Assembly (NCBI RefSeq): GCF_964199755.1
Contig: NC_133901.1
Coordinates: 10,803,556-10,867,555 of the forward strand
Direction of reading: 5' to 3'
DNA: 64,000 bases
Source: Larus michahellis
Lineage: Eukaryota > Chordata > Aves > Charadriiformes > Laridae
Under the pieces are notes generated by a model. It was not told where the DNA came from. It worked only from the letters and a program-made list of their open reading frames with translations, and made no database searches. Shown here piece by piece: positions 14,242 through 17,300 of the stretch (position 1 is the first letter of the stretch; each line of letters starts with the position of its first letter). The translations under genes were made by a program, and so were the position numbers.

Positions 14242-14373
14242 TCACAATGGCATCTTATTGCCCTCAATGCTGATTTTCACTGCATGGGCCGATCTGCTTT
14301 TTTTCCTGATATCTGTGAATTTCCGCATCTGTTTGTCCAGTCGACTCACCCCTTTCTTAGAGGTCCCCTGGAA
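14242..14373 (-). CDS. IWS1: Canonical IWS1 terminal exon (exon 14b)
   Basis: Acceptor TTTTTTAAG/TTCCAG at 14374/14373, phase 0, then [19 protein letters not shown]... and [13 protein letters not shown] with TGA at 14242-14244. It matches the known vertebrate C-terminus almost residue for residue. The tail is basic and ends in a conserved hydrophobic tripeptide. The 3' UTR continues to about 13.97 kb. Confidence 0.95.
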
Positions 14374-17300
14374 CTTAAAAAATAAAACTAATAATTACCA
14401 CCGAAAAAAAGCAGACGTCCCAGAGGTTCAAGAAAAGCAATGCATGCAAGGTTAGATCTGCAAGAGGGAGGTGATGAAGCCACTGGTTCCAGCTCATTTT
14501 GTGTGTGTGTGCGCGTGCGTGCGCACATTGTCTCCCCACAAAGCAGATAAAATGGTTCCCCCAGTATCAGCATCGCATATGTGGAGGTAGTCGTGCTCAC
14601 AACCACCACACAGGAAAGCTTTCACCTTACAAGGGTTAATGACAGTGTTAGCTGTTGACGTGCTGGCTGACTATACAGTCTGGAATAGTTTTGTTTCTAT
14701 ATTGGCTGGAGTTTAGTGTCAGAAATATCCTGCGCTATGGCGTCACACGTACAGGCTTCCTCTGGGGGAAGAGTTTTGGATACAAATACACAGTAATTGA
14801 GGTGGATTGAGTTGACAGATCAATTCCAAACTGCTATTTATTTTAAAGGTCACCCATTAGTACTTACAAAGCAAGAGACAGAAGGGGTGAGGGGGCAGCA
14901 AAAGAAATGCACAGGCTGACCATACAAGTTATTAGAGGATGTACTGCATTTCATCTCTGTATTTTAACTGCAAATTAAAAACTGAGATGACACGACAGTT
15001 ATTTTGCACAGATAAAATACAGTGATACTGTAAAGAAACGCCACTGAAGACAAATAGCAAGGACCTTCCAATCCATAGCCATTGCTTCCCAGATAGCAAT
15101 TTCCCCTAAGCAGACCACAGAAACAATAAATGATGGAAACTTCACGCCTTTAAAGTCTGTGAGAAACAGGGATCTCCAGAACATGCTACTTAATATCTGA
15201 CAAAAAAACATCTATCAGAAACCGAACCTCTTGTTCCCATCGCTGAGGAAGGTGCTCCTGTCACACTGATTTTAAATGAACTTTATTCATAAAACTATTC
15301 ACTAGTCATTGAAATTATATCTGGAATTTCACAGTGATTTTTAAAAAAATATTTTTTTTTTAACAAATAAATATGAAGCTTAAACTAAAGAGTTATCTAC
15401 CATTTGTGCTAGCCTCTTCCTATCACTGTTCATTTGTGGCAGCCCTGCTCGTGGAACTGAAATACAGGCCAGAAATTGTGAAAACATTTCCCACGCTGAT
15501 GCATGTCTGATTGATCTCCCTCCACCCTGCATTCACAGCCGGGGATCCTTCTGTCCCTGGTCTGCAGAGGTCTCATTCTCTGCCTCCTGTCAATCCCCCC
15601 GTTAAGTCTCACATCACTCAACTTCTTGAAAATGTAGGTGTGAAAAATACCTTACTTTGTACCAGTAAAACATCAGCCACAGAGGTCAGCATACAGTGAC
15701 ATGAGGTCCTGCACTAAGGGCTGAGAACTCCTGCGTGTCAGTTCAGGTTAATCTGGAGAACCCCAGTATGTTGGAACAGCATTCAGAACCATAGGTGGTG
15801 CAAAGCTGTTTTTGAGTACAGGTACTTTCATTTAATACCTGTCATTTGGGTACCCTGAAGCTGTCGAGGCAGGTATCATGGCAGATGTTACGTGCTACAG
15901 CCTATTTTCTCCTGTACACGTTCCCTTTTAGGTCACAGTACAGACATCAGAGAATACGAGGAGGGTTTTCCAAGTTTAAGTTAGGGTGTACACACTCCTT
16001 TCCTGTTTGTGCAAACTGCCGACAGCTGAAGCACATGCACTGTTCACACCTCCCTCGAGGGATACCTCTCAAACTTGGGGAAGGTAGAATGTCATGGCTA
16101 CAGGGGCATCCTGTTGCCTTCAATGCTGAACTTGATGGCCCGATGCACTTTGCTGAGTCGTTTCTGTTCAGCAAACCGTCTCTTGTGTTTTTCCAAGCGA
16201 CTAATACCTCTCTTAATAGTCCCGGGCTAGAAACAATATCTCAATTAATGCACAGAAGGAGAGATAACAGCAGAAAGCACAGTAATTATTACTACTTCCA
16301 TTTACATGTGTTCTACCATGTACTCTGCTTTTAAGTAAACTGTACAAGGTAGACAGATGAACCAAATAAAGCAAGGCAGAGGCCTCTACTGAAACTGTTA
16401 ATGTTTACCAAAACCTTGACGTTTTCCAAAACTGGAATATTATCAGAAGAACATGATACAAAAACTGGGAGAGGTGTAAAAATAGCAGTGACATATTGTA
16501 TCGCAGAGCTTTAGTTCTAAATGCTCTAACATAAGAGGCCTGTAATCAGATTCTTACCCTAGAGAGAAACTCTAGAATAGAGTTAACATAAAAATCTCTT
16601 TTTGGTAAAAGAAACAATACCTGAATTAAAGTATTTGATGAGCTCAAAACAGCCCACTCAACAACAGAACTTAATGTCTACTCAAATTAGAAGAGACACT
16701 TAGAAGAACCACCATATTGTACAGTAATGACAGCAGTAAGGTGACAGATTCCCAGGCTTAAGGCAGAGTCACTAAGCCATCCCCACGCCACCGTGCTTAC
16801 CCTGGAGGACTCCATCTCCACATTCCACTTGGGCCTGACCACATAGTCCTTGTTGGAGGGCATTGGCACCCTCGCGCGGGCACAGAACCCAGGGTCTCCG
16901 GGTCTAAGAGCCCTGCAGAAAAAAAGATACAATTTTTAAGAGATAAATCTTATACAGAAAGAAGTACAAGCAATATAGCATGTTCTGCTTCTGAAACACA
17001 CTGCATAACCGTTGCCTCTAAAATCTCCAAAACCCCTGCAATATTGTTAGTACCACTAAAATACTTTTCTCTAATAAAAATTTAAAAAAAAAGAAATCCA
17101 ACCTACTTTTCCTCTCCAGTTAACACTTTCTCCAGGTCCCTGCGGGGAGTCTGACCACCAGAGCTGCAAGAAAAATAAAATTTTATAGGCGCAGAGAAAG
17201 ACTGTACTTTTAAAAGACAGTCAAGTGTGGCAAAAGGGAAGACAGAGGTCATAACTTAGTAACCTTTTATTGCCCTTAATATTTACACACCACTTTGTTT

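Follow-up and report, generated by a model that had tools for sequence, protein, structure and literature searches.

Does the IWS1 gene of the gull Larus michahellis encode one C-terminal tail or two? IWS1 is a helper of RNA polymerase II (Pol II) in copying DNA, and according to two papers from 2025-2026 its C-terminal tail recruits IWS1 and permits stimulation of Pol II (PMC13175633, PMC12368070). An initial annotation of a 64,000-nucleotide stretch of gull DNA (hereafter the window, to which all coordinates refer) had placed two terminal coding exons, 14a and 14b, behind the same upstream exon, each with a tail of its own. We asked whether the two exons are related, what the tails would have in common, and whether both could serve as the end of one protein.

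Exon layout and the C-terminal docking module

IWS1 is encoded on the minus strand, with both terminal coding exons located downstream of exon 13 (Table 1); the exon numbers 13 and 14 stem from a by-eye reading of the listing of reading frames and are provisional. Both exons are in phase 0, and each starts straight after an AG, in frame with exon 13. More specifically, the intron between exons 13 and 14a comprises 574 bases and ends in tttctag, and 14b opens approximately 1.7 kb beyond 14a, after tttttaag. Translation bore out the layout that had been proposed, namely two phase-0 last exons with an acceptor and a stop of their own, 42 codons in 14a and 43 in 14b, and the common ending SIEGN(K/R)MPL in both tails. 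As a whole, the arrangement has the sequence layout of a putative tandem duplicated exon substitution, with neighboring homologous exons of equal phase that are interchangeable by sequence. Farther upstream in the same gene, the long acidic exon of IWS1 (24148-24900, minus strand) contains short near-identical repeats, which are a likely source of length differences between species.

Table 1. Features of the IWS1 3′ region in window coordinates; acceptor scores come from a rough matrix, and ranks are among the 174 AGs found from 16,790 to 14,240.
Feature	Position	Strand	Details
Exon 13, shared upstream exon	16801..16912	-	37 residues; donor AGG/gtaagc; ends ...VEMESSR
14a 3′ splice site region	16227..16256	-	...cattaattgagatattgtttctag; score -1.3, rank 31 of 174
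Exon 14a, coding part	16098..16226	-	42 codons, then stop TAG
ATTAAA, further candidate poly(A) signal after 14a	15836	-	
AATAAA, candidate poly(A) signal for 14a mRNA	15282..15287	-	nearest AATAAA, ~810 bases past 14a stop
AATAAA, further candidate poly(A) signal after 14a	14842	-	
14b 3′ splice site region	14374..14403	-	...ttattagttttattttttaag; score 0.51, rank 19 of 174
Exon 14b, coding part	14242..14373	-	43 codons, then stop TGA; known IWS1 tail
AATAAA, candidate 14b poly(A) signal	13986..13991	-	~250 bases past 14b stop; G/T 0.70 downstream

The 14b peptide corresponds over its full length to residues 777-819 of PDB chain 9mlc_i (41/43 identical, E 2e-20), in agreement with the earlier description of 14b as the known vertebrate C-terminus of IWS1. 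The 14a peptide matches the same chain with an E value of 5e-07. That this chain is human follows from its numbering, which agrees with PMC13175633 and PMC12368070, and not from the search output. Up to E 1, the sole other matched sequence in the PDB was 9egx_O, also IWS1, and the two distinct IWS1 sequences matched are both of the 14b type.

In human IWS1, residues 787-795 form a helix on the RPB1 jaw, residues 805-819 form a tail in the RPB1 cleft, and the residues R787, K790, R793, K794, K809, and K816 are placed near downstream DNA in the account given by PMC13175633. The same source describes the association of IWS1 1-786 with the elongation complex as severely compromised, with no stimulation. 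Similarly, PMC12368070 names residues 786-819 Interaction Site 4 and describes stimulation as absent once the final 40 residues are removed. Mapped onto this numbering by alignment, the duplicated exon contains the entire Pol II docking module together with approximately 10 preceding residues.

Homology and divergence of the two exons

BLASTP aligned 14a and 14b without gaps over 41 residues, with 21/41 identical, 31/41 similar, and an E value of 3e-15. The initial annotation had counted 21 shared positions out of 42; the 21 identities stand, but there are 41 aligned columns, one fewer than it had counted. The chance test set consisted of 19,760 stop-free 41-residue stretches from the six frames of the window, both exons included. 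The self-score of the aligned 14b peptide was 203 and its score against 14a was 115, whereas no other stretch exceeded 26.

A six-frame search of the whole genome (1,405,500,149 bases in 616 contigs) with either peptide gave matches at these two sites only. The search produced 3 and 2 first-look candidates, all of which were scored; where repeats or large families are concerned, its counts are minimum values. No third exon copy, paralogue, or retrocopy such as a processed 14a mRNA was found in the six frames of the genome. Pfam, searched at E values up to 10, returned no family for the 14a tail or the 14b tail. Prokaryote and viral contigs gave 127 and 62 pattern matches with 0 confirmed relatives, and as the wrong place for animal genes they are uninformative on conservation. 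A six-frame whole-genome search with hen egg-white lysozyme returned no match at E 0.001, with 7 candidates scored, and globin exons were readily found; c-type lysozyme may be absent or diverged here, the assembly may have a gap, or the search may have reached its limit. Chicken alpha-A globin gave 12 matches in the genome, the best of them 83% identical over query residues 30-101. The translation of that best exon matched 93 distinct PDB sequences at E up to 1e-20; among the 60 listed, the top six are double-length haemoglobin constructs with two matching stretches each, and the best single-length chains are 1faw (haemoglobin alpha), 3wr1, and 1a4f (alpha-A), with more alpha-A chains after them. 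Both 1faw and 1a4f are goose haemoglobins, and the globin result points to a bird as the most likely source.

Differences between 14a and 14b fall on codon positions 1, 2, and 3 at 14, 13, and 22 of the 41 codons, and third positions set against first and second positions show, taken alone, only a modest contrast (Fisher p 0.033). Nei-Gojobori estimates gave a pS of 0.77 (bootstrap 0.54-0.99) and a pN of 0.30 (0.19-0.41). Silent sites are saturated, and a different codon is used at 12 of the 21 identical residues. Because pS is saturated at 0.77 while pN is 0.30, the pair diverged mainly under protein-level selection. Furthermore, when 14b was left to drift neutrally in simulations, an open frame with at least 21/41 identities was retained in 0 of 20,000 runs at each of d 0.75, 1.0, 1.5, and 2.0, and in 1.0% of runs at d 0.5. 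Judged from these substitution patterns, protein-level selection acted over the history of the 14a/14b pair, a statement that says nothing on the present state of 14a alone. The old exon duplication put forward earlier is borne out by the alignment, the pS and pN values, and the drift runs, in the sense of paralogous exons that diverged under such selection.

At neutral rates of 1.5-3e-9 per site per year, the lower bound of pS dates the split to at least approximately 157-313 million years ago, a rough figure for so short an exon. The estimated age exceeds that of modern birds. That selection should act on a duplicate of the tail makes sense, because truncated human IWS1 docks poorly and gives no stimulation.

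Against the human protein, 14a aligns gap-free to residues 779-819, with 21/42 residues identical to the 14b type. Identity between 14a and 14b varies by segment, with 5/8 at 779-786, 5/9 in the jaw helix (787-795), 1/9 in the unmodelled linker (796-804), and 10/15 in the cleft tail (805-819). The contact segments (15/24) differ from the linker (1/9) with a Fisher p of 0.017, in a division that is post hoc and uncorrected. As in the human module, K or R occupies 6/6 of the named DNA-facing basic positions in 14a, 4/6 of them with the identical residue, and the net charge is +10 for 14a and +9 for 14b. Unlike the human module, 14a carries M792K, I798Q, T796A, and S804V (human numbering) in addition to its changed linker. 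The jaw helix of 14a retains L788 and F795 next to M792K, and I798Q is located just after the helix. Ser/Thr residues number 4 in 14a and 7 in 14b.

The initial annotation had proposed that 14a exchanges one segment for a different basic sequence and could thereby alter a nucleic-acid or partner contact. The change of the linker was confirmed, but a different nucleic-acid contact is not favored: the DNA-facing positions keep K or R throughout, and the net charges of the two tails are +10 and +9. Since the named DNA-facing charges are kept, residue comparison favors a docking tail in variant form for 14a over a tail that binds nucleic acid differently. Single-sequence AlphaFold2 models, which are weak predictions made with neither an alignment nor Pol II, placed a helix at residues 3-37 of 14a (mean pLDDT 85.5; five models 62.4-85.5) and at residues 11-38 of 14b (mean pLDDT 73.1; five models 65.0-73.1). 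The models hint that 14a may be more helical than 14b.

Splice signals, poly(A) signals, and alternative readings

Four neighboring IWS1 acceptors score 7.3-9.3 on the rough matrix used in Table 1; the exon 13 acceptor (first exon base 16912) scores 9.34. By eye, the 14a acceptor has its AG, a branch-point-like TTAAT approximately 20 bases upstream, and a pyrimidine-rich stretch farther upstream. Altogether 30 of the 174 AGs outscore 14a as acceptor, including those at 16464, 16339, 15156, and 15043 on the minus strand, and the choice of 14a would therefore need other signals. The weak competing acceptors of 14a and 14b would fit a regulated choice, and they would also fit a declining site. 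A second acceptor AG is found 6 bases inward from the start of 14b (ttttaag/TTCCAG/GGG; exon start 14367) and scores 5.99, rank 1 of 174. If used, this inner acceptor would remove F777-Q778, which are present in the PDB IWS1 chain.

Regarding the 3′ ends, the G/T fraction downstream of the candidate signal at 15282..15287 is 0.47, and those of the other two candidates after 14a are 0.45 and 0.50, with no clear G/T-rich element. The candidate signal for 14b, in contrast, is followed by a G/T-rich element. A scan of the 3′ region for bacterial promoters and terminators, a method unsuited to an animal gene, gave counts inside the shuffle spread.

These features bear on how 14a is to be read. All 42 codons of 14a are intact, its DNA-facing charges are kept at 6/6, and its acceptor retains the AG, the upstream pyrimidine-rich stretch, and the TTAAT branch-like word. 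It is therefore rather unlikely that 14a is a relic, meaning a once-used alternative last exon that is no longer spliced in this lineage and was silenced too recently for decay, even though its acceptor has a low rough score and its poly(A) signal is distant. Neutral drift from 14b would also leave room for a recent silencing, as at d 0.3 the open frame alone survives in 36% of runs and is accompanied by at least 21/41 identities in 23%; at d 1.0, the open frame survives in 17%.

Less probable still is that 14a is used mainly as a switch at the level of the mRNA or the 3′ UTR, acting through early polyadenylation or stability, with an inconsequential difference between the proteins. A regulatory early 3′ end needs no coding homologue, and the amino acids were preserved as the two exons diverged (pN 0.30, pS 0.77), while the linker sequence differs. 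On the other side, a separate 3′ UTR would come with each exon, and with the named DNA-facing charges kept the two proteins may behave alike. That the resemblance is accidental, an assembly artifact, or the product of a wrongly read frame is scarcely credible, and both chance similarity and assembly duplication were rejected on the basis of the pair E value of 3e-15, a score of 115 against 26 for the next best stretch in the window, the position of both exons within one 74 Mb contig, and the saturated silent sites, because of which the exons are no assembly duplicates.

Two proposed docking tails of IWS1

Taken from the sequence, the most probable explanation is that an old tandem duplication gave IWS1 two homologous, mutually exclusive last coding exons, and with them two docking tails via alternative last-exon use. 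Exon 13 would join 14a, with polyadenylation ahead of 14b, or it would join 14b. Either choice would lead to a full-length IWS1, and the two forms would differ solely in the final 42 or 43 residues. Those residues would hold the docking module, with its helix placed onto the RPB1 jaw and its basic tail running through the Pol II cleft along downstream DNA. We infer that 14a would be expressed and dock on Pol II like 14b, and that its linker and more polar helix face (M792K, I798Q) may tune the affinity or the competition with other RPB1-jaw binders, e.g., RECQL5 and Elongin A. Weighing against this reading are the low rough score of the 14a acceptor, its far-off AATAAA with no clear G/T-rich element, the jaw helix at 5/9 identity with M792K, the modest contrast of third codon positions taken alone, and the failure to find a third copy, such as a processed 14a mRNA, in the six frames of the genome.

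In the description given by PMC13175633, RECQL5 and Elongin A, and also UVSSA, RPAP2, and XPB, bind a jaw surface that overlaps the one used by the IWS1 helix; competition between RECQL5 and IWS1 was seen in the assay of that study. These jaw binders are other proteins; a PDB search with 14a at E values up to 1 returned IWS1 only.

Tandem duplicated exon substitutions offer the closest known parallel to the exon layout. Most are described as ancient, with important residues maintained and mostly conservative changes (Martinez-Gomez et al. 2022, PMC9741552). Within that catalogue, 77/236 human tandem-exon substitutions exchange C-terminal regions, and C-terminal swaps are enriched. The catalogue covers human genes, and IWS1 occurs 0 times in its main text. 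A literature search with the tail peptides and IWS1-isoform phrases gave no paper, and among the papers listed by broader searches no title or abstract start describes a second IWS1 tail; automated database isoform annotations may well list 14a.

The finding implies that a second copy of the exon holding the docking tail was kept by evolution. If both tails are used, the pair would represent a natural experiment, in which the contacts are the positions that matter and the linker may vary. The 14a tail fits existing reconstituted assays without new methods. More tentatively, and with considerable doubt, birds and perhaps other amniotes, given the apparent age of the duplication, might produce IWS1 in two kinds, each docking on Pol II with a different jaw-and-cleft tail. 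The core elongation complex would then come in two splice-chosen forms that differ in their hold on the polymerase or in how well they withstand competitors for the jaw, RECQL5 among them. With both tails in use, a factor described as globally acting would have splice isoforms at its docking site.
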